Positions 751 to 13,827 of a DNA stretch of 40,362 nt are shown here, piece after piece; positions within the stretch are counted from its first letter, which is position 1, and each line of letters starts with the position of its first letter. Source of the DNA: Gammaproteobacteria bacterium. Lineage in GTDB: Bacteria > Pseudomonadota > Gammaproteobacteria > CAIRSR01. The stretch covers positions 1 through 40,362 of the forward strand of contig CAUYTW010000066.1 in NCBI GenBank assembly GCA_963575715.1, in the 5' to 3' direction. A program made the position numbers and the translations under genes. The notes under the pieces were generated by a model. The model saw only the letters and a list, made by a program, of their open reading frames with translations, did not search any database and was not told the DNA's origin.

Positions 751-1755
751 TCAATGTAGTGATGTTTCCGTCCAATAATTCTTACGCTGCAGGTATTCTT
801 CACGATTAACAGTAAACCAATTCCATGTCGTTTCTAGTCCGCTACGCAGAGAAGTTGTTGGCTCAAAATCTATCCACGCACGAGCACGGGTCATATCCAT
901 AACACGACGCGGAAAACCCGACGGCTTCGACGTATCAAAAATATAATTAAATGGAATAAAGCTATTTAATGTTTTGACCAACTCACGGATGGTGTATCCC
1001 TGACCGCTGCCTAAATTAATAAAGGATCCTCGTGTTCCGTGGTATAAGGCAAGAATTACGCCTTCCGCTGCGTCGGTTGCATAAAGAAAGTCTCGAACCG
1101 CTGCACCATCTCCCCAAATTTGAACAGGATCTTCACCGTTGGCGATGCGCCACATCAATGAAGGAATGACCATGGCGTTCTCGGGATCGAAGTTATCGCC
1201 CGGACCGTAAATGTTGCAAGGGCGAACCACAGCAAAGTGATCAAAACCGTATTGTTGTTGATAAGCCTGACATTGCAATTCCGCCATTCGTTTAGCCCAG
1301 CCAGGAAACATATCCATTGGTTGCGTTAATAAATCATATTCATCTTCCTTGAAAATTTCGGCGCTGCCATAAGTTCCAATCGTACTGGTGTATACTACCT
1401 TTTTTGCGCCATTCAAACGAGCGGCTTCCAAAACGTTCGTATTCATCATTAAAAAAGGAACAAAGGTACTTGCTGGTCGTGCCTTGGTAATCTCAACAGA
1501 GCCTTTAATACCTGCGAGGTGAAATACAAAATCCATATCACAGGTTATTTCCTTGCAAAAGGAAAAATCGCGTAAATCACCATAAATATGTTCAGCGTTT
1601 TCATGGACCGTGAGATGATCGAGGGATACGATACGCACATTTGCACCAGCAGCGCAAAGGATGCGAACGACTTCACGGCCAATCATTCCAGTACCACCAG
1701 TAACGAGAGCGTTTTTGCCGATAAAGCTATCTACTATTTTCTGTTTTATCATCAT
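751..1755 (-). CDS. NAD-dependent epimerase/dehydratase (extended SDR), altered active site
   Basis: This is a 334-residue extended short-chain dehydrogenase/reductase of the nucleotide-sugar epimerase/reductase type. The Rossmann glycine motif TGGTGMIG is at residues 19-26. The TSTIGTYG segment (123-130) supplies the usual Ser/Thr, and RPCNIYGPGDNF marks the sugar-binding half. The YxxxK pair is altered: the aligned positions read P151-G-W-A-K155, so the lysine stays but the catalytic tyrosine is proline. The start is a double ATG with GGA upstream, nine bases after the broken FkbM gene. Its C-terminal half (FDTSKPSGFPRR and onward) closely resembles that of the SDR at 3776-4741, so the two are paralogues. 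Substrate is unknown; a nucleotide-linked sugar is inferred from the operon. Confidence 0.8.
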   Translation of the reverse strand: MMIKQKIVDSFIGKNALVTGGTGMIGREVVRILCAAGANVRIVSLDHLTVHENAEHIYGDLRDFSFCKEITCDMDFVFHLAGIKGSVEITKARPASTFVPFLMMNTNVLEAARLNGAKKVVYTSTIGTYGSAEIFKEDEYDLLTQPMDMFPGWAKRMAELQCQAYQQQYGFDHFAVVRPCNIYGPGDNFDPENAMVIPSLMWRIANGEDPVQIWGDGAAVRDFLYATDAAEGVILALYHGTRGSFINLGSGQGYTIRELVKTLNSFIPFNYIFDTSKPSGFPRRVMDMTRARAWIDFEPTTSLRSGLETTWNWFTVNREEYLQRKNYWTETSLH

Positions 1756-1764
1756 TGTTCCATT

Positions 1765-2868
1765 TTAGACATTATTATTTGATAAAGAACTAGCGCGAGC
1801 ATGAGGAACCGGAATTCTGCGTGGTAACGCCGCATCCGCAACGTCTGCGAAATGGCGATACTTATTGATGAAGCTACATAATTGCAAATTTGCCTGAGTC
1901 GGATCAGCATTCATGCGAGATAATAATTCTTGTATTTCTTGAATAGTAGCTTCTCCAGTTTTTTCTCCGACACGTTGTGCTAAACGTATAAGTCTCGCTG
2001 TCTCCTCAACAGAAAAATCTCCATCAACAGCAAGTTCAACAGCAAAGTCGTAATATCCAAGTAATAAGGCGCAAAGATACAACATGGCATATTGACGAAT
2101 TCCAGATAAATTCGTTACTGTATCTTTAGGATCTTTGAAAAAGACCGCATCACCAAAACATAGTCTTTCTCTTCCAATTATTTTACATTTATCAATATAT
2201 TTTTGTGACCAACCTTGAGTTTCCATGAATCCATAAAAGGAAAAACCAGCTTTTCTCAAGAATTGTTCTAAATCTGAAAAGCGCGGTTGATTCTCATAAA
2301 TTTCCACGAAAGAAACTTCAGAAATAATGGCCACGGTACGTTCTTGTAATGTGCGTGGTGCTGCCATCAATAAATCTAATTCCGATCCTTGCACATCTAG
2401 CTTTAGCAATTCCCCAAAAAAAGGTTGGCTCTTTCAATATTCAAACAAAATCGCGTCAAGCGTGTCCACCTCCACGGATAGGCTACCCTTGTACTCAAGT
2501 GATGAGACACGGTAACGATCACGAAATACGTGACTGGCCTTGAGCAAGGAATGGTTGACACCGTGAGCATAAAGATTTAATTCGCCACGGCCTCGAAAAC
2601 CACCAACAGCGATATTTTCAACCACCGCAAAACCATAACGATCAGCCAAAGAATCATTTAATTCCATAATTCCTTGAGGATCCGGTTCAAAAGCGAGTAC
2701 AGCCGCAAATTGAGCAATTGCATTGACGAAATTTCTCACCCCACCACGAGAACCAATATCTATGAAGCCAAGAGGAGCCGATTGTAGTTCAGCAAATATG
2801 TGACTAGCTTGAAAATCAGGATCATTTAGGAAATGACATTGATTCTTTTCCTCTACATCGGTCGCCAA
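1765..2868 (-). pseudogene. FkbM family methyltransferase interrupted by an in-frame TGA
   Basis: Two open segments, 2434-2868 (144 codons) and 1765-2409, lie in the same reading frame and together form one FkbM-type SAM-dependent O-methyltransferase of about 366 codons. The first half carries FIDIGSRGG (SAM site) and AFEPDP, ending in VDTLDAILFEY. A TGA at 2434-2436 follows, and then the reading continues SQPFFGELLKLDVQGSEL, which holds the family's LKxDVxGxE signature. There is no length change, so a single base change of a TGG tryptophan codon would explain the stop. A C-terminal extension of about 120 residues follows the domain. The start is TTG at 2866-2868, overlapping the upstream methyltransferase by 16 bases. 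The gene is likely inactive unless the stop is read through or is a sequencing error. FkbM enzymes methylate sugar hydroxyls. Confidence 0.8.
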
Positions 2869-3779
2869 ATCAATAACGAATAACCCTCATGATATAAACT
2901 ACCCATACCTAGACGGTGGGATTTAATTAATTCGATTTGCCTGGCATCCATTAGCTTTCGTAAACTAGGGAGATAACCTTGAAGATACTTGCGGCCTTGA
3001 TGATAACGAAAAGCTATATTATCATACAAGCTCTCTGAATTATAAAAATCTGCTATTGGCTCCATATGGATAACTAAACCTGGACGGCGTTCAATAAGCC
3101 AGTCAAGAAATTGTTGAAAGCCTTCGCCGATTTGTTCCAACGCACAAAAAGTCATAACTGCGGTGTTTTTTTCTAAGTGCAGTACCGGATCCGGATGGAA
3201 TAAATCAAAATGCCGTCCTTGTAACCGAAAGCCATGAAATTTCGCTACGTGATTAATAAGATCTACTGCAGAATATGCCCAGTCTAGCCCAACTAATTCC
3301 TTCTCCGGTGCCAGCTGCGCCAAAGCAGCCAAATTGAAGCCGCTGCCGCAACCAAATTCCCAAACTCGCTGAAATTTGGCTAAATATTTAACAAATAACC
3401 ATCGCCGCAGCACACGAAAATAATTAAACTCAAACCCTGTTGTCAATGGTAGAGCGTAATCACCTTGCAACCGGATATGGGTTGATTTACTAATAAAGCT
3501 TGGCTCTAAAGCCGCTAGATCATTTTTACTGGCAGCATAACGTTCCGCTATCTCACCCCAAGCCATTTCCCAAATAGGGTGGCGGTGTTCGCCTACTTGA
3601 TTAAAACTGTCCAATGAACGTAGCACCGACAGGATTAAAGTATCGCGCTCGTCTTGCTCTAATCGCCGATAGCGAAAATCATGTCGTGCTATTTCTTCTT
3701 GAACAAAATATGTATCTTCCGCAGGGGCATCAAAAGCATTCAGAAAATCAGTAACAGTAAAGATACGGATATCCTTCAT
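2853..3779 (-). CDS. Class I SAM-dependent methyltransferase
   Basis: The product has 308 residues. I place the start at the ATG at 3777-3779 because it forms an ATGA overlap with the stop of the upstream SDR; an in-frame start 12 codons earlier would overlap that gene more. The first 130 residues are a helical N-terminal region with no motif I recognise. VWEFGCGSGFN (about 139-149) is the glycine-rich SAM loop, ELVGLDWAYSAV the next strand with its acidic ribose-binding residue, and MTFCALEQIGEGF the strand-4 region. It is probably a small-molecule or sugar methyltransferase acting on the nucleotide sugar or glycan made by this operon. The substrate is not visible from sequence, and a non-methylating role cannot be excluded. 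Confidence 0.75.
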   Translation of the reverse strand: MKDIRIFTVTDFLNAFDAPAEDTYFVQEEIARHDFRYRRLEQDERDTLILSVLRSLDSFNQVGEHRHPIWEMAWGEIAERYAASKNDLAALEPSFISKSTHIRLQGDYALPLTTGFEFNYFRVLRRWLFVKYLAKFQRVWEFGCGSGFNLAALAQLAPEKELVGLDWAYSAVDLINHVAKFHGFRLQGRHFDLFHPDPVLHLEKNTAVMTFCALEQIGEGFQQFLDWLIERRPGLVIHMEPIADFYNSESLYDNIAFRYHQGRKYLQGYLPSLRKLMDARQIELIKSHRLGMGSLYHEGYSLLIWRPM

Positions 3780-4741
3780 GATTTCATGCCTGAAGTAATT
3801 CGATTCAAATACCAATGTACCGTATCGATTAAGCCGTCACGTAGAGATATCGTCGGCTCGAATCCAAGCGTTTCCCTAGCTTTACTGCAATCAACCATAC
3901 GTTTAGGGATCGTAGTTGGCTTGCTGGTATCAAATATAACCTCGACATCGTGCCCCGCAGCTTCAAGTATGTATCCAACAATTTCGCGGACGGTGGCAAC
4001 CTTGCCGTAGCCGATATTGATCGGCTCGCAGGTTGGCATTTTTTCCGTGGCCAATAGACAGCCACGCACTAAATCTTCAACATGCAAAAAATCCCGAATT
4101 TCGTCACCGGTACCCCATACTTCGAAGGGAGTCATCTTGTCCACAGCCTTGCGAATGAGCGCGGGAATTACATGACTGGTTGCTAGATTGAAATCGTCAA
4201 AACGACCATAAGTAGCCGTCGGGCGAACCAAGACGATTTTAGTGCTGGATTTTTGATGAACAAATTCCCCCATGCGCTCCAGATAACGACGCATCCAGCC
4301 ATAGCCGAAATAGGAAGGATGAGTAGGCCCATTCCACATTTCATCCTCACGGATGGGATGTTCGGATACCGGATAACCAGTAGACGAGCCAAAGATTTGT
4401 ACCCGCGCGGTTTTCGCCGCCCAAGCTGCCTCTAACACATTGGCAGTTAAGGTTAAATTGGTGGTAATCGCCGACATGGGATTACTGGCTGTGACTCCTG
4501 CGGCGGAGACCGCGCCGGCGCAATGAAAAACGATCTCGACGCCTTCTAGGGCGCGGCGGCATTCCTGCTGATTGGTCAAGTCGGCGATTCGTATTTCAAC
4601 ACTCGGATCATGAATAATCATCGGGCGATTGTGTACGACGGCATGCACCCGCGCACCCGTTTCTAGTAGGGCCTTGACCATGTGTGTGCCGACAAAACCC
4701 GATCCACCGGTTACCAAACATATCTTATTTTGATAAAACAT
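3776..4741 (-). CDS. NAD-dependent epimerase/dehydratase (extended SDR), YxxxR variant
   Basis: The product has 321 residues. The reading frame is open further upstream, but the start is set at the ATG at 4739-4741 because the Rossmann motif TGGSGFVG (11-18) then sits where the family has it. This start overlaps the transketolase C-subunit gene by 17 bases. The Ser/Thr motif reads FGSSTGYP. The YxxxK site reads Y147-G-W-M-R151: tyrosine is kept and lysine is replaced by arginine. RPTATYGRFDDFN and GTGDEIRDFLHVEDLV are typical of sugar epimerases and reductases. The stop forms an ATGA overlap with the next methyltransferase gene. It is a close paralogue of the SDR at 751-1755. Epimerase or reductase of a nucleotide sugar is the likely role. 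Confidence 0.8.
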   Translation of the reverse strand: MFYQNKICLVTGGSGFVGTHMVKALLETGARVHAVVHNRPMIIHDPSVEIRIADLTNQQECRRALEGVEIVFHCAGAVSAAGVTASNPMSAITTNLTLTANVLEAAWAAKTARVQIFGSSTGYPVSEHPIREDEMWNGPTHPSYFGYGWMRRYLERMGEFVHQKSSTKIVLVRPTATYGRFDDFNLATSHVIPALIRKAVDKMTPFEVWGTGDEIRDFLHVEDLVRGCLLATEKMPTCEPINIGYGKVATVREIVGYILEAAGHDVEVIFDTSKPTTIPKRMVDCSKARETLGFEPTISLRDGLIDTVHWYLNRITSGMKS

Positions 4742-5627
4742 GAGAATTATCTCTGGTTGCTGAAACCGATAGCAGCCATTCGACGGCAGTGTGAATACCA
4801 GAAACATCCAAGCCAAGCTTGGCGTGAATGTCATGTAAGGTACCGTACCAACCGCAAAAGACGTCCGGCAGCCCGTGATACCAGGTACGCAGGCCGGGCA
4901 CCTCGTTAATGGCCTCACGCAATCCGAAGGCGTCATGCACAACTAGGATGCGGGTGTCGGCAAATGCCTGTATCAATTCGTGGTCAATTGGTTTTATGGT
5001 GTGAAAGTACACCAGATTGACGTTCAGATCGCGCACTGCTTCCAGCACGTTACCAAGCAATGGGCCAGCGGTCATTACTGTCACGTCGCTTCCGTGTTTG
5101 AGCACCATTCCCTTGCCAAAACGGATTTCACCAGTATCGATGGTATGCGGATGATCAGACAGACGGAAATAGGTTGGTTGACCATTAGCATATTGACTGC
5201 GCAGCAGCGCGTTCAATTCTTTGATTGTTCCCGGCTGCAATACTTCGCACCCTGGCAACATCCGTAAAATAGCTAAATCCGTGTAGGCATGATGGGTGGC
5301 GCCGTCCCAGGCGTAATCAAAGGAAGCACCGCAAGAAATAATATTGCCCCCGAAATGGTTGTAGCACAAATCTAATTTGATTTGTTCATAGCTGCGTTCG
5401 GTAAGGAATGGTGCGATGGTATGCACAAAGGGAATTAATCCTTGCGAACTCAAGCCCGCCGCAACGCTAATTAACGTATTCTCGCAGATGCCCATATTAT
5501 GAAAGCGTTCAGGATAACGCTGACGAAAATCATTGAATACATAAACACTCACGTCGCCAAGAATGATGGTAATGCGATCATCATGTTCAGCGAGATCCAG
5601 CACAGTCTGTTTAAACTGTTTTCTCAT
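4725..5627 (-). CDS. Transketolase-like C-terminal subunit (pyrimidine-binding half)
   Basis: The product is 300 residues and corresponds to the C-terminal half of a transketolase: the pyrimidine-binding domain plus the C-terminal domain. MGICENTLISVAAGLS carries Glu49, matching the catalytic glutamate that activates the thiamine diphosphate cofactor in this family. The remainder (ISCGASFDYAWDGATHH, then TVMTAGPLL) follows the expected strand order. It overlaps the N-subunit gene by 17 bases, so the two are translated together and should form a heteromeric enzyme. Split transketolases in sugar clusters either supply ketose phosphates such as sedoheptulose 7-phosphate or add a two-carbon unit to a keto-sugar. 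Which applies here is inference. A DXS-like or acetoin-type activity is less likely, given the genes around it. Confidence 0.85.
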   Translation of the reverse strand: MRKQFKQTVLDLAEHDDRITIILGDVSVYVFNDFRQRYPERFHNMGICENTLISVAAGLSSQGLIPFVHTIAPFLTERSYEQIKLDLCYNHFGGNIISCGASFDYAWDGATHHAYTDLAILRMLPGCEVLQPGTIKELNALLRSQYANGQPTYFRLSDHPHTIDTGEIRFGKGMVLKHGSDVTVMTAGPLLGNVLEAVRDLNVNLVYFHTIKPIDHELIQAFADTRILVVHDAFGLREAINEVPGLRTWYHGLPDVFCGWYGTLHDIHAKLGLDVSGIHTAVEWLLSVSATRDNSHVLSK

Positions 5628-6393
5628 CCAGTTCTCTCATCAGGATTGCAAATTCTTGATTATTCGGTGACCGCCGATGCCATTCATAATGATTATTAGC
5701 TAATGTTGTGCAACCATACCCTTTGATCGTATGGGCTACAATTACTTTCACCTGTTGACTAAGCTGTTGAAACGTTTCGCTCAGTGCCTTCAAATCATGA
5801 CCGGCAACCGCGACCACCTCGCAGCCAAAACCTTGAAAGTGTGCTTCGGGTTCAAATATTTGCAACCCCCGGGCATGGGATCGATTGTCATCATAGATAA
5901 TTGTTAAGTTATTCAATCTTTGATTAACTGCGACCATGATTGCTTCCCAAACCGTTCCCTCATTTGATTCACCATCGCCAATAAGAACAAACACCCGACG
6001 AGGTAACTTTTGTATTTTAAATGCCAAAGCAATGCCAACCGCCACACCAATTCCATGACCTAGTGAACCTGTCGAAACCTCAATGCCGGAAATTTTAGCG
6101 TGATCCGCATGGCATCCAAAATCCGACATGAATGCTCCGAAGGTAAAAACTCTTTCGATTGGAAAATACCCATGGTGGGCTAATACACAATAATGAGCAA
6201 GTGCCGCATGGCCTTTACTTAAGACAAAGATGTCCCGCTGATTCCAATCGGGAATATTCGGATCGTGTTTCATCACGCCATAAACGGAATGAAGAATTTC
6301 AACAATGGAGAAGCAGGTCGGAATATGGCCATGACCACTTTCCCTGGCTATCCGTAAAATGTTTTTTCTGATGTCAGCACAAGCTGGCTGCAT
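5611..6393 (-). CDS. Transketolase-like N-terminal subunit (thiamine diphosphate-binding half)
   Basis: The product is 260 residues, the diphosphate-binding half of a two-subunit transketolase. HGHIPTCFSIVEIL and LSKGHAALAHY are the N-terminal cofactor-region motifs. The Mg/thiamine-diphosphate motif begins GDGESNEG at residue 139 and ends at Asn170 in IIYDDN, the spacing expected for this family. STGSLGHGIGVAVGIA is the conserved glycine-rich loop. The ATG at 6391-6393 has GGAG six bases upstream. It partners with the C-subunit encoded by the overlapping next gene. A single housekeeping transketolase is normally one chain of about 660 residues, so this split pair is more likely a pathway-specific enzyme for the sugar operon. 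Confidence 0.87.
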   Translation of the reverse strand: MQPACADIRKNILRIARESGHGHIPTCFSIVEILHSVYGVMKHDPNIPDWNQRDIFVLSKGHAALAHYCVLAHHGYFPIERVFTFGAFMSDFGCHADHAKISGIEVSTGSLGHGIGVAVGIALAFKIQKLPRRVFVLIGDGESNEGTVWEAIMVAVNQRLNNLTIIYDDNRSHARGLQIFEPEAHFQGFGCEVVAVAGHDLKALSETFQQLSQQVKVIVAHTIKGYGCTTLANNHYEWHRRSPNNQEFAILMRELDEKTV

Positions 6394-6416
6394 AATAACT
6401 CCAGTTTATCTCTCGA

Positions 6417-7175
6417 CTATTCCAAAACTGCGAAAGAAATACGTGACGCCGCAGGATAGCGTTGAATTCTAAGACCAGCTAAATTCATGGTTTCAAGAAG
6501 TGCGATAGTTTCACCAGGAAATATATCATCACATAATTCGTCAAACACTAATACACTTCCCTTGAATAATCTGGGCTTGATGGCTTCCAAAGCAATTTTA
6601 GTTGGAGCATGAATATCAAAATCAAATATCGCTAAGGATACAATAGTTTCTGGATGGCGTGCGAAATATTCGGGAATTGTCTGTGCCGCATCTCCTTTGA
6701 CCAGCTCGTATTTTTTAAGGTGAGAAACAGGATTCAACGCATCCTGGAGTTCGATGAGCCGCGCTAGATAGGTCTCGTACTCACTCGATACTGAAAAAGA
6801 GCCATCAATGCAACGACAATTTACACCATCTTTTTCATTCATTCCCTTAAATCCCTCAAAAGTATCAAAACCAATAATTTTTCGATGACGATTAAATGGC
6901 TCAAATATTCCTCGCAATGCCGACAATAAAGAAATAGTCTGTCCCCAGCGTACTCCAAACTCCATGATGACGCCGTGAGTATTGATGATTTTTTGATAAA
7001 TCTCATGAAAAAAAATTATTCGTGCTAGTGACTTAGAGGTCAGATATAATCCTAAATTTGGTAGTAGTTCGTCATCAGGTAAAGGAGTTTTCTTGAGTAA
7101 AGCACAGAACTCTTTTTGAATATTTTTTTCACTTACACTAGAAAGTACGATAGCATCATGTTTTTCTGTTTTCAT
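6417..7175 (-). CDS. TylF/MycF-like sugar O-methyltransferase
   Basis: The product is 252 residues. VIMEFGVRWGQTISLL (about 69-84) is the SAM-binding loop, and KIIGFDTFEGFKG the strand with the acidic cofactor residue. LVKGDAAQTIPEYF and LAIFDFDIHAPTK follow, with acidic residues placed as in the metal-dependent TylF/macrocin O-methyltransferase group. Members of this group in glycan clusters are sometimes misannotated as crotonobetainyl-CoA:carnitine CoA-transferase. The family's usual job is O-methylation of a deoxysugar hydroxyl, often needing Mg2+. The start forms an ATGA overlap with the preceding SDR, so translation is coupled. The substrate is inferred to be the sugar made by this operon. 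Confidence 0.78.
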   Translation of the reverse strand: MKTEKHDAIVLSSVSEKNIQKEFCALLKKTPLPDDELLPNLGLYLTSKSLARIIFFHEIYQKIINTHGVIMEFGVRWGQTISLLSALRGIFEPFNRHRKIIGFDTFEGFKGMNEKDGVNCRCIDGSFSVSSEYETYLARLIELQDALNPVSHLKKYELVKGDAAQTIPEYFARHPETIVSLAIFDFDIHAPTKIALEAIKPRLFKGSVLVFDELCDDIFPGETIALLETMNLAGLRIQRYPAASRISFAVLE

Positions 7176-8149
7176 TTATTCCACCAATTTTTATTTTCTT
7201 GCCACCATTCAAGTGTATTTTTTATTCCTGCATCAATGCTTATCTGTGGTATCCAATCTAGTTTGCTGCGGGCTTTCGAGCAATCCAGCGCGCGAAAAGC
7301 GGCCGTTGTTGGACGTTGGTCATTATATTGAATGCGGGATGGAGTATAGTCCGCATACTTGAGCGCCCATGTGACAACATCATCAACTGTTGTCTGAACC
7401 CCTGAACCAATATTGAAAACATCGAAATGGATGTCATCTCGTTCTAACATTAATACCACCGCGCGTGCAAAATCGTCAGCATGAATCACATCTCTTGTAA
7501 CCTCTGGGCTACCCCAAATTTCAAATGGATCCATTCGATCGACCGCCTTACGAATAATGGCAGGAATAAAATTAGAGGTTTGAGGATTGAAACGAGCGAA
7601 TGGCCCAAAAACATTAGACGCACGGATAATCATGATATCCATGCCGGATTGTCGATGCCAGAATTCGCATAATTTTTCGTTAAATCGAGTGACCCAGCCG
7701 ATTCCCGTATAAGCATCGGGAGGATTTTGATTCAGATCAAGCTGATTTTCTCGGATATGTCCATCAAACGGCTGATACAATGTCGCGGAGCCGATAAATA
7801 CGAGTCGTCGCATATTTGACATGGCTAAACCTTGCAATAAATTTGCGTTCATGAACAAATTGTCATTAATCTGTTGCCATGGTTGAGCGGTTAATGTGCC
7901 GACACCTGAAGTACGAGCAGCCGCCATTACGGCGCAATCACAGCCCATCCCAATACGACTGCATTCTTCCTGTGAGGCGATGTTTGATTTAACGTATTCT
8001 ATTCGCGGGTTCAAAAAAAATGGTTCTGTGTGATGATAACATGCTCGAATTAATAAATCGGAATCATGATAAAGAAGCCGGGCTAAAATGGCAGTACCAA
8101 CCATTCCAGTTGCTCCTGCCACTAATATTTTTTTTCCATGCAATGACAT
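7172..8149 (-). CDS. NAD-dependent epimerase/dehydratase (extended SDR) lacking the YxxxK pair
   Basis: The product is 325 residues. VAGATGMVG (10-18) is the Rossmann glycine motif, GSATLYQP the Ser/Thr segment, and RASNVFGPFARFN the sugar-domain signature. At the catalytic site the aligned residues read I150-G-W-V-T154, so both tyrosine and lysine of YxxxK are missing. The rest of the fold looks intact, which argues against simple decay. Relatives could act as epimerases using other residues, or could be inactive partners. It starts five bases after the dehydratase stop and ends in an ATGA overlap with the TylF-like gene. Its position directly after the dehydratase suggests it acts on the 4-keto-6-deoxy intermediate. 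Confidence 0.78.
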   Translation of the reverse strand: MSLHGKKILVAGATGMVGTAILARLLYHDSDLLIRACYHHTEPFFLNPRIEYVKSNIASQEECSRIGMGCDCAVMAAARTSGVGTLTAQPWQQINDNLFMNANLLQGLAMSNMRRLVFIGSATLYQPFDGHIRENQLDLNQNPPDAYTGIGWVTRFNEKLCEFWHRQSGMDIMIIRASNVFGPFARFNPQTSNFIPAIIRKAVDRMDPFEIWGSPEVTRDVIHADDFARAVVLMLERDDIHFDVFNIGSGVQTTVDDVVTWALKYADYTPSRIQYNDQRPTTAAFRALDCSKARSKLDWIPQISIDAGIKNTLEWWQENKNWWNK

Positions 8150-8154
8150 AATAT

Positions 8155-9165
8155 CTACCGTACTAAACGCGACGCGCTAAATTTTACTCGATTGCGCCAA
8201 TAATCCAGCAAATCCAGCATCGTTTTTTCAAACGGAATTGCTGGCTTCCATCCGGTGTGTGCCTGGAATTTTTTCGTATTAGGAACTTGCAGATCGGCAT
8301 CCAATGGCCTTAATCGAGTCTGCTCAATTTCCACCTGAATGCTATCACGGCACGTTGAAATTGAAATGAGATATTCGAGCATATCCGCTACGGAACATGA
8401 AAACGTGCCACCAATATTGTAATAAGCGCCTGGAACTGGATTAATCGTGACCAGCAAATAATAGGCTCTAACTGCGTCGCGGACATCAGACCAAGTACGC
8501 AACGACTGGAGATTTCCGGTTTTTACCACTGGTGGGATGAGTCCTTGTTCAATCATGGCGATTTGTTTGGCAAAGGAAGATTCCGCGAATACGTCGCCGC
8601 GCCGTGGACCCGTATGAGTAAACATGCGAGTGACCAATACCTTTTGACTGTAAGCCTCGGCGTGAAATCTACCTATTAAATCTGCTCCTGTTTTGGAGAT
8701 GGCATAAGGTGACGCTGGATGAAAAGAGCATTCTTCATCAATAGGTAATTTTTCTCGTGGTACTCTGCCGAAAACTTCCGACGAGGAGCAGACGTGTATG
8801 ATGGGATCGATTTCTGAACAACGGCGTAACGCTTCAAGGAGTCTTTCCGTGCCCAGGATATTGGTGTCAAGGGTATGGAGAGGAGAAGTAAAACTGTTTA
8901 ACGGATAACTTTGAGCCGCAAGGTGAAATACATAATCAGGGCGGGATTTTTCAACGGCGTTAATAAGAGATACATAATCACAAAGATCTCCATCGATGAA
9001 GTGGATGCGATCTTGACGATTTGCACGGTCAATGAGATGTTCAATATTATCCAGAGGGCTACGCCATCGACACATCCCAAAAATTTCCCAATCGGTATTC
9101 TCCAATAAAAAATCTGCAAGATGTGATCCGACCATACCGGTAATGCCGGTGATTAGTGTTTTCAT
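8155..9165 (-). CDS. GDP-mannose (or GDP-heptose) 4,6-dehydratase-like SDR
   Basis: The product is 336 residues. GITGMVGSHL (7-16) binds the nucleotide cofactor. HLAAQSYPLNSF and SSSEVFG (127-133) match the GMD-type active site, in which the Ser/Thr-Glu pair performs dehydration. Y154-A-I-S-K158 is an intact YxxxK motif, unlike the three other SDRs in the operon. The family converts GDP-D-mannose, or GDP-manno-heptose in DmhA-type enzymes, to the 4-keto-6-deoxy sugar. The start is an ATGA overlap with the HddC-like nucleotidyltransferase gene, whose product probably supplies the activated sugar. GDP is inferred as the carrier from this pairing; dTDP- or CDP-glucose dehydratases are less similar by motif. 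Confidence 0.82.
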   Translation of the reverse strand: MKTLITGITGMVGSHLADFLLENTDWEIFGMCRWRSPLDNIEHLIDRANRQDRIHFIDGDLCDYVSLINAVEKSRPDYVFHLAAQSYPLNSFTSPLHTLDTNILGTERLLEALRRCSEIDPIIHVCSSSEVFGRVPREKLPIDEECSFHPASPYAISKTGADLIGRFHAEAYSQKVLVTRMFTHTGPRRGDVFAESSFAKQIAMIEQGLIPPVVKTGNLQSLRTWSDVRDAVRAYYLLVTINPVPGAYYNIGGTFSCSVADMLEYLISISTCRDSIQVEIEQTRLRPLDADLQVPNTKKFQAHTGWKPAIPFEKTMLDLLDYWRNRVKFSASRLVR

Positions 9166-9887
9166 TTGGAATATTTTTCAAAGAAATTTTGAGCACGGAA
9201 ATAATCCACCGGAATGCCAATGTCGATAAATTTTCCCTGCGTTAAAAAACCATATAGTCCATAATCTATCATGGTTGGAAAAATTGTTTTTTCAAGAGAC
9301 ACTGACTGTTCAGCAGGTATCATCTTTATTATGATTTCCTGATTTATAACATAAATGCCTGAATTTATATAACCATCACCGGAGTAACAACCTTTTTCTT
9401 CAAATTTGGTTATTTGTCCTAAACTATTCATAGATACTTTTCCATAGCGACCCACATCATCTATTGAAGTTACGGCAATCGATAATTTTGCGCTTCTTGT
9501 TTTATGAACAGTGAACATTTCGCTTAAATCGAGATCACAAAAAGAATCCCCATTCATGACAATCACTGAATCGGTCTGCAATAGCGATAAAGCCAGACGC
9601 AAGGCTCCTCCTGTTCCTAGTGGATATTGTTCCGTCGAGTAAAGGAGTTCCATGGATCGATAACAAGAACCTAATACCGTTTTCATCATTGCTTCCATAT
9701 AACCAACACATAATATAACACGAGAGATGCCAGCGTCGGCAATTTGGTCCATGAGATAGGTAATGAATGGGCGTCCGTGTATTTTAGCTAAACATTTTGG
9801 ACAATCATTGACTATCGGACGAAGTCGAGTGCCTAGTCCACCAGCCAGAATTACTGCCTCTTGGGGATATTTTTTATTTATAATCAA
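9162..9887 (-). CDS. HddC-like sugar-1-phosphate nucleotidyltransferase
   Basis: The product is 241 residues. VILAGGLGTRLRP (about 12-24) with PKCLAKI is the nucleotide-binding signature of sugar nucleotidyltransferases, and VMNGDSFCDLD holds the metal-binding aspartate. KFEEKG and INSGIYVI are typical, and the ending FIDIGIPVDYFRAQ closely resembles D-glycero-D-manno-heptose 1-phosphate guanylyltransferase (HddC). The likely reaction is activation of a hexose or heptose 1-phosphate with NTP, probably GTP. The start is TTG at 9885-9887 with AAAGGAG at good spacing; no ATG precedes the signature. It is the first gene of the sugar operon. Mannose- or glucose-1-phosphate as substrate cannot be excluded. 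Confidence 0.8.
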   Translation of the reverse strand: MIINKKYPQEAVILAGGLGTRLRPIVNDCPKCLAKIHGRPFITYLMDQIADAGISRVILCVGYMEAMMKTVLGSCYRSMELLYSTEQYPLGTGGALRLALSLLQTDSVIVMNGDSFCDLDLSEMFTVHKTRSAKLSIAVTSIDDVGRYGKVSMNSLGQITKFEEKGCYSGDGYINSGIYVINQEIIIKMIPAEQSVSLEKTIFPTMIDYGLYGFLTQGKFIDIGIPVDYFRAQNFFEKYSK

Positions 9888-12831: not shown

Positions 12832-13827
12832 TTATTTATTGAAAGGCTCCGGGCGCGGAGTCTTATCGCTGGAGGGTGGTAAGATCGGTAGCAAAAATCT
12901 AGGTTGATCGCCAGTCAAGGTGTTCAGGAATGCCACAATCTTGGCGTTTTCTTCCACACTAAATGTTTTTCCGAGTTGAATACGACCCATGGTATCCACC
13001 GCCTCAGAGAGGATATGAGCCTCACCGTCGTGAAAATAAGGATAAGTCAGCGCCACATTTCGCAAGGTCGGCACTTTGAACTTAAATCTATCCTCTTCGT
13101 TACCAGTGACCGCGCTTAAACCTTCGGCGGAACTGTTGGCTGCATAAGGCTCGACGATACCCATTTTTTGGAATGAATTACCACCCACTGCCATACCGTT
13201 GTGACAGGCGACACAACCGCTATTTTTAAATAGCTCGTAGCCAGCTTTTTCGTCGGCAGTAATAGCATCCGTATTGCCTAGCAACCATTGGTCGAAACGA
13301 GAATTCGGTGTGACTAGTGTCTTCTCGAATTCTGCAATTGCCTGGGTTACTTGATCGACAGTAATTTTGTCTTCACCGAAAGTTTGTTTGAAATCAACAA
13401 TATAACCAGGTATAGACTCTAATACCTCAATAGCCAGCGCATGGTTGGAGGCCATCTCACCTGGGTTAGCGATTGGACCACCTGCTTGTTCCTGAAGATC
13501 CTTGGCGCGACCATCCCAAAATTGGGCGACATTCATGCTGGAGTTGAGTACGGTCGGTGCATTGATTGGTCCCTCATGCCAATTGTGACCGATAGAAGTA
13601 CGCAAATTGTCAGTACCACCCATGCTCAAGTTATGGCAAGAATTACAGGAAATAAACCCGGATTTTGAGAGTCTGGGATCAAAATAGAGCTTCTTCCCTA
13701 GCTCCACCTGAGCCAGGTTGATCTCCTGAACAGGACGAATTGGTTGGATTGGTTCTTCGGCCAAAACCATGAAGGAAAGAGAAATTCCTACTAAAGTTAG
13801 ATTGATTGCATAATTAAGTTTTTTCAT
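12832..13827 (-). CDS. Di-haem cytochrome c peroxidase (CcpA/MauG family)
   Basis: The 331-residue protein has an N-terminal signal peptide (MKKLNYAINLTLVGISLSF, likely cleaved after VLA at residue 23). Two haem c sites follow: C61-N-S-C-H65 and C205-V-A-C-H209. FWDGRAKDLQEQA, TPNSRFDQWL and VPTLRNVALTYPYFHDG are conserved in bacterial di-haem peroxidases, and TMGRIQLGK near residue 285 probably supplies a distal methionine ligand. It reduces H2O2 to water in the periplasm using electrons from small c cytochromes. GAGGA lies upstream of the ATG. It converges on yidC. The anchored cytochrome c at 17872 is a possible electron partner, though this is only suggested by presence in the same region. 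Confidence 0.93.
   Translation of the reverse strand: MKKLNYAINLTLVGISLSFMVLAEEPIQPIRPVQEINLAQVELGKKLYFDPRLSKSGFISCNSCHNLSMGGTDNLRTSIGHNWHEGPINAPTVLNSSMNVAQFWDGRAKDLQEQAGGPIANPGEMASNHALAIEVLESIPGYIVDFKQTFGEDKITVDQVTQAIAEFEKTLVTPNSRFDQWLLGNTDAITADEKAGYELFKNSGCVACHNGMAVGGNSFQKMGIVEPYAANSSAEGLSAVTGNEEDRFKFKVPTLRNVALTYPYFHDGEAHILSEAVDTMGRIQLGKTFSVEENAKIVAFLNTLTGDQPRFLLPILPPSSDKTPRPEPFNK

Follow-up and report, generated by a model that had tools for sequence, protein, structure and literature searches.

A widespread split-transketolase cassette associated with GDP-heptose genes and predicted to build branched surface sugars

We describe an operon that is the local copy of a widespread, previously undescribed cassette, in which a two-subunit (split) transketolase stands beside genes of GDP-heptose type. 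It lies at the start of contig C66 of a Gammaproteobacteria bacterium, within a stretch of 40,362 nucleotides that we call the window. Judging from its sequences, the cassette appears to make an activated seven-carbon sugar and to add a two-carbon branch to it. We give a probability of roughly 58% to the reading in which the operon supplies a surface polysaccharide with an activated, branched sugar derived from 6-deoxy-heptose. The genes present, their families, their association across genomes and the pattern of residues are observed; what we infer is every reaction, the donor, where the branch sits and which sugar results.

The transketolase is encoded on the minus strand by TKTn (5611..6393), the subunit binding thiamine diphosphate (ThDP), and TKTc (4725..5627), the pyrimidine-binding, C-terminal subunit. 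Plasmid p2 of Azospirillum sp. TSA2s came up in a tblastn search with TKTc, carrying a match of 70% identity; seven window genes recur there at 47-73% identity: the dehydratase (72%), one of three short-chain dehydrogenases/reductases (SDRs), SDR_C (47%), the O-methyltransferase (73%), TKTn (58%), TKTc (70%), the S-adenosylmethionine (SAM)-dependent methyltransferase at 2853-3779 (50%) and SDR_B (60%). No counterparts of HddC, SDR_A or the FkbM-type methyltransferase occurred in the 30.9 kb of this plasmid that was read. A single scan of a genome collection with two TKTc sequences as queries returned 61 more loci (53-75% identity), and together with the plasmid these make the 62 loci counted below, many of them cut by contig ends. 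Because TKTc was the only query, the neighbouring genes were not selected for. TKTn was present in 61/62 loci, a methyltransferase like CalS11 in 48/62, the dehydratase in 48/62, SDR_B in 47/62 and the SAM-dependent methyltransferase of the 2853-3779 type in 27/62. Genes of heptose type were also frequent: HddA in 42/62, an RmlC-like epimerase in 41/62, an HddC-like gene in 31/62, GmhB in 10/62 and GmhA in 5/62. HddA or HddC was found in 24 of the 29 loci of at least 20 kb; HddA, dehydratase and transketolase stood together in 37 loci, and 22 held HddA, HddC, dehydratase, RmlC-like epimerase and transketolase.

Cassette hosts span about a dozen phyla, and include Alphaproteobacteria, Magnetococcales, sulfate reducers and their relatives, Nitrospirae, Nitrospinota, Omnitrophota, Elusimicrobia, Verrucomicrobia, Lentisphaeria, Planctomycetes, Lindowbacteria, Desulfocucumis, and one metagenome-assembled genome (MAG) each of Woesebacteria and Methanoperedens. 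As many loci come from MAGs, some of these placements may be binning errors. Gene order differs widely between loci. The loci share descent or transfer and are not independent events, and the association of the genes has outlived their rearrangement. The grouping is far beyond chance, since seven genes recur on the Azospirillum plasmid and the transketolase-dehydratase-heptose set recurs across the 62 loci. We found no description of the cassette in the literature on split transketolases, on transketolase with GDP-heptose or on transketolase with O-antigen.

Both subunits belong to the split, two-gene transketolase superfamily by their domains (Transketolase_N at 3.6e-31; Transket_pyr at 3.9e-23 and Transketolase_C at 1.7e-6), by their best PDB matches (the N chain of 6yak and the C chain of 6yaj, a split transketolase) and by their catalytic Glu and active-site His residues. 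Their best families are transketolase models, and they are not members of the decarboxylase superfamily of YerE type. In the numbering of E. coli TktA, we take H461, R520, S385 and R358 to be phosphate-binding residues, E411 to be catalytic, and H26, H66, H100 and H261 of TKTn and D469 and H473 of TKTc to have active-site or ketol-binding roles. TKTn keeps the ThDP motif and its four histidines in 61/61 sequences, and TKTc keeps D469 and H473 in 62/62 and E411 in 61/62 (one gap). The phosphate site of a pentose-phosphate transketolase is not conserved: the H461 position is Gly in all 62 TKTc sequences, and the R520 position is Asp in 53, Ala in 8 and His in 1. This double change is complete in the cassette clade. 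Among a small number of controls, both residues are kept by E. coli TktA, by the housekeeping transketolase of the window's own genome and by the split transketolase 6yaj. Split transketolases from other contexts keep R520 in most cases and vary at H461, so that loss of H461 alone is not diagnostic.

Related split transketolases occur in CDP-glucose rfbF/rfbG clusters, with a CDP-glucose 4,6-dehydratase, on Methylovirgula plasmid pHY1 and in Paenibacillus cellulosilyticus. Both carry Gly at the H461 position and Lys at the R520 position, no heptose gene annotations are present in either stretch, and they possibly branch CDP-4-keto-6-deoxy sugars. The Paenibacillus enzyme also adjoins a methyltransferase 39% identical to the CalS11-like one of the window. 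Since H461 and R520 are replaced and related enzymes sit in CDP-4-keto-6-deoxyglucose clusters lacking heptose genes, we favour branching of GDP-6-deoxy-4-keto-heptose over a supply of sedoheptulose 7-phosphate (S7P). That the cassette transketolase acts on a nucleotide sugar is, in our judgement, probable. Separately, the Paenibacillus N subunit is apparently fused with an SDR, in a 636-aa gene annotated as SDR.

We regard a heptose origin of the sugar as highly likely, because the dehydratase groups with a GDP-heptose 4,6-dehydratase, HddA (in some loci GmhA and GmhB) recurs beside it, and HddA and GmhA are found in the window's own genome. The dehydratase (8155..9165, minus strand, 336 aa; GDP_Man_Dehyd at 1.4e-70) is 50% identical to the Campylobacter GDP-heptose 4,6-dehydratase of solved structure 7us5. 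When a tree was built from the window dehydratase and those of 46 cassette loci (47 in all), 7us5 fell inside a 26-tip clade with the window enzyme (support 0.98), and GMD and RMD sequences fell outside. Identification as GMD was rejected on this placement and on a score of 159 bits against the GDP-mannose 4,6-dehydratase model TIGR01472, for which the curated cut-off is 415. By sequence, the enzyme is a member of the GDP-heptose 4,6-dehydratase group with that activity predicted. Best PDB matches of the RmlC-like epimerases include GDP-4-keto-heptose 3,5-epimerases, about 15 bits above the best ordinary RmlC, and homologues of GmhA, HddA, GmhB and HddC co-occur in a few loci. GmhA and GmhB homologues are apparently fused beside the cassette in three loci (L107, L108 and L110; one open frame of 383-430 aa), the fusion being seen in the one locus examined by family search.

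The nucleotidyltransferase (9162..9887, minus strand, 241 aa) is a less specific marker. It scored 172 bits with the HddC model (NF049965), below the cut-off of 300 and without a clear margin over mannose-1-phosphate guanylyltransferase (168 bits), and so falls outside formal HddC membership. Its best PDB matches are 6jq8/5xhw, a '6-deoxy-D-mannoheptose pathway protein' (139 bits vs 124), and its cassette relatives are divided between the two models. Its sequence would fit heptose or mannose, and heptose use is suggested by context.

Further pathway genes are encoded elsewhere in the same genome. An HddA homologue (C331:294-1298) has HddA (NF049969) as its best family at 148 bits, next family 75, cut-off 600. 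It stands at the start of its contig, ahead of an FkbM methyltransferase and a putative glycosyltransferase (C331:294-3961). This group may continue the window operon, but joining it to the window start was rejected as unproven adjacency, the contig ends showing no overlap. GmhA lies on contig C222; HldE is also present, so GmhA may additionally serve ADP-heptose. A separate full-length housekeeping transketolase (contig C16, 987 bits) led us to reject a housekeeping role for the split enzyme.

An earlier, sequence-only reading of this DNA had proposed most of these families (an HddC-like nucleotidyltransferase, a GMD-like dehydratase, a split transketolase, three SDRs and methyltransferases), and Pfam and NCBIfam concur. 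Its link of the HddC/GMD-like pair to heptose is borne out by the dehydratase grouping, the recurrence of HddA, GmhA and GmhB, and the HddA and GmhA of the same genome. Every gene it named was found, with the correction that the FkbM-type methyltransferase (1765-2868) is split over two frames. Its statement that no gmhA- or gmhB-like gene and no glycosyltransferase is present is correct as far as the operon and its flanking DNA go, and the search it called for beyond the window recovered gmhA, hddA and the possible glycosyltransferase, with GmhB remaining under its cut-off. A mannose-specific nucleotidyltransferase together with a housekeeping transketolase would have spoken against it; the transketolase is not of that kind, and the nucleotidyltransferase stands at the near-equal scores given above.

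In the pathway we propose, the dehydratase would convert GDP-heptose to GDP-6-deoxy-4-keto-heptose, on which the RmlC-like epimerase would then act in many other loci. TKTn-TKTc, with ThDP, would transfer a two-carbon ketol (glycoloyl) unit to the keto carbon, most simply C4, resulting in a tertiary alcohol. The donor may be hydroxypyruvate or another unphosphorylated ketol donor, as suggested by loss of the phosphate clamp in TKTc. The SDRs and methyltransferases would then modify the branched nucleotide sugar, and glycosyltransferases encoded elsewhere would transfer it. For the cassette as a whole, we place at even odds the proposal that it has spread horizontally in about a dozen phyla and that its products are GDP-activated nine-carbon sugars with a C4 branch, formed when a transketolase-type reaction transfers a ketol unit to GDP-6-deoxy-4-keto-heptose.

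Several observations weigh against this pathway. Two Arg residues survive, R358 and R155 of TKTc (the latter shared with 6yaj), so phosphate might still be recognised to some extent, and the S385 position is alignment-dependent, being Tyr/Phe in one alignment and a gap in another. A ketose phosphate as donor would sit awkwardly with the loss of the phosphate site. At a few loci, the Azospirillum one among them, the stretch read contains no HddA or HddC. In the window's own genome, no GmhB scored above cut-off (in C. jejuni, too, GmhB lies away from the capsule cluster; PMC10680097) and no heptose-type RmlC-like gene was found; the nearest match, at 38%, was rejected as such and is probably an ordinary RmlC. 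The reductions assigned to the three SDRs are doubtful as well. SDR_A orthologues have Ala or Pro for the catalytic Tyr in 22/22 and keep the Lys; SDR_B has YxxxR for YxxxK, with Lys replaced by Arg in 41/41; and SDR_C lacks the catalytic Tyr in 27/27 and the Lys in 15/27, the window SDR_C being without Tyr136 and Lys140. Arg209 (Fcl numbering) is kept in all three despite these family-wide departures (window and orthologues, L057-L117). Because the YxxxK motif is incomplete in all three, simple ketoreductions should not be assumed.

The sequence-only reading had left two roles for the transketolase: supply of S7P, or addition of a two-carbon branch to a keto-sugar. The residue pattern and the CDP-glucose relatives favour the second, although the reaction itself is deduced. 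Under the first, an ordinary transketolase would have been recruited to raise S7P for GDP-heptose, and the sugar would be a plain methylated 6-deoxyheptose. GDP-heptose synthesis does start from S7P (PMC10680097), and the transketolase is genomically linked to HddA and HddC, in five loci to GmhA. However, we consider this unlikely: S7P-using GmhA occurs in only 5/62 loci vs 42/62 for HddA, the genome has its separate housekeeping enzyme, and H461 and R520 are replaced in all relatives. The main counter-argument is that split transketolases follow keto-deoxy nucleotide sugars of two kinds, the CDP-glucose clusters without heptose genes being ones where S7P is not needed.

If the transketolase does act on a GDP-keto-sugar, it could do so at another position or in another direction, by ketol addition at C3, by lengthening the chain to a higher-carbon sugar or by taking off a two-carbon unit. 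Retention of D469 and all ketol-binding residues would suit this, as would the unusual SDR active sites, which fit poorly with simple 4-ketoreduction. Yet the dehydratase of most loci is expected to make a 4-keto sugar, the simplest acceptor, and the precedents of paulomycin, avilamycin and yersiniose branch at C4, so we rate such variants as rather unlikely. More improbable still is a route from GDP-mannose, in which a mannose-1-phosphate guanylyltransferase and a GMD-like dehydratase would yield GDP-4-keto-6-deoxymannose for branching. The nearly equal nucleotidyltransferase scores, the preference of several relatives for the mannose model and the absence of HddA and HddC from the Azospirillum stretch agree with it, but the dehydratase lies inside the GDP-heptose dehydratase clade, and HddA is present in most loci and in the window's own genome. 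Bradyrhizose was considered as the product in Bradyrhizobium, where the cassette occurs, and set aside as speculation, since the bradyrhizose paper has no matching genes.

The window operon comprises ten minus-strand genes from 9887 to 751, overlapping or at most 24 bases apart (open reading frame (ORF) table and sequence), which we read as one operon; rnpA and yidC adjoin it by eye. A promoter scan returned sites no more frequent than in shuffles. All three SDRs match the Epimerase family and are GDP-fucose-synthase-like: the best PDB match of SDR_C (7172..8149) and of SDR_A (751..1755, found in many cassette loci) is E. coli Fcl, and those of SDR_B (3776..4741, with its ATG at 4741 in a frame open to 4942) are GDP-L-fucose synthases. 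Pfam matches of the methyltransferases are weak. For the O-methyltransferase (6417..7175), an AlphaFold model (pLDDT 85) searched with Foldseek best matched 3tos/5hoq, the TDP-rhamnose 3'-O-methyltransferase CalS11 (E 2e-25, 36% identity, TM 0.90); thus at least one cassette neighbour comes from a family acting on nucleotide sugars. The SAM-dependent methyltransferase (2853..3779) has weak Methyltransf_12/25 matches. The FkbM-type methyltransferase consists of an N-terminal part (2434..2868), which clusters with FkbM-type ORFs of other loci, and an out-of-frame C-terminal part (1765..2409; Methyltransf_21 at 2e-8). The frameshift lies near a run of seven A (2409-2434), and assembly error, pseudogene or phase variation are all possible.

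Some neighbours may contribute further sugar chemistry, including a radical SAM protein that recurs beside the cassette (L022:20708-22747 and 14 other loci) and NUDIX-type ORFs in about ten loci. Downstream of the operon, a minus-strand ORF (40-618) has a membrane-like N-terminus and an NlpC/P60-like DCSGL motif, and 12832-13827 encodes a MauG-like/di-haem cytochrome c peroxidase protein with two CxxCH motifs, both noted by eye. Outside the cassette, Streptomyces plasmids (L125, L131) carry a split transketolase that keeps H461 and R520, with LysW, DegT aminotransferase and BtrH-like genes; these loci belong to a separate biosynthetic system of the amino-group-carrier kind. In Actinoplanes missouriensis, a split transketolase with a methyltransferase, of no assigned function, also lies in a polysaccharide cluster (PMC13390465).

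ThDP-dependent branching of nucleotide sugars is known; what is new here is a transketolase-linked, GDP-heptose-associated cassette. If our reading is true, it represents a new way to build unusual surface sugars, and environmental bacteria should then carry surface sugars of a branched, heptose-derived class. Branching of keto-sugars by split transketolases is a proposal yet unproven, a ketone-sugar acceptor having been demonstrated for no transketolase according to a 2025 review (PMC12247030), and the candidates named in that review all come from Streptomyces or antibiotic clusters, the 13 further putative sequences counted there being all from streptomycetes. The cassette adds candidates by the dozen, and genes for the probable acceptor pathway lie next to each of them, which makes the question directly testable. 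Cultured carriers include Azospirillum sp. TSA2s, Desulfospira joergensenii, Roseospira visakhapatnamensis, Bradyrhizobium species and Desulfocucumis palustris. Enzymes that join a ketol to a ketone would also be useful for synthesis of chiral tertiary alcohols.

Among known systems, the GDP-6-deoxy-heptose pathways of Campylobacter jejuni share with the cassette the GDP-heptose enzyme set (GmhA, HddA, GmhB, HddC) and the dehydratase and epimerase families. They also have C3/C5 epimerases and C4 reductases, whereas the cassette SDRs lack the standard YxxxK and the cassette has a conserved O-methyltransferase of nucleotide-sugar type; a review of these pathways mentions neither transketolase nor branched sugars (PMC10680097). 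The split transketolase of Carboxydothermus hydrogenoformans (6yaj/6yak) has the same two-subunit arrangement and ThDP site, but keeps the H461 and R520 that cassette TKTc has lost. Closest in proposed chemistry are the split transketolases of miharamycin and amipurimycin, also suggested to attach hydroxyacetyl groups to keto-sugars (PMC12247030); theirs is a proposal only and concerns antibiotic clusters, whereas the cassette clade occurs in many, mostly Gram-negative phyla and is tied to GDP-heptose. AviB1/AviB2 of avilamycin eurekanate are likewise two proteins for which joint attachment of a two-carbon branch has been proposed, there with pyruvate as proposed donor, an acetyl branch and an antibiotic pathway. 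In the yersiniose pathway, YerE (with ErwE and MMAR_2332) is a ThDP enzyme that adds a branch to a keto-deoxy nucleotide sugar destined for a surface glycan, an activity established with pyruvate-type donors (PMC12247030). YerE is of the decarboxylase superfamily and uses CDP-3,6-dideoxy-4-keto-glucose, in contrast to a two-gene transketolase with a sugar derived from GDP-heptose. If our reading is true, the YerE and AviB types would be joined by a third ThDP-based way of making branched sugars, and the cassette would offer the first branching of a GDP-heptose and the first transketolase-made branched sugar of surface glycans.

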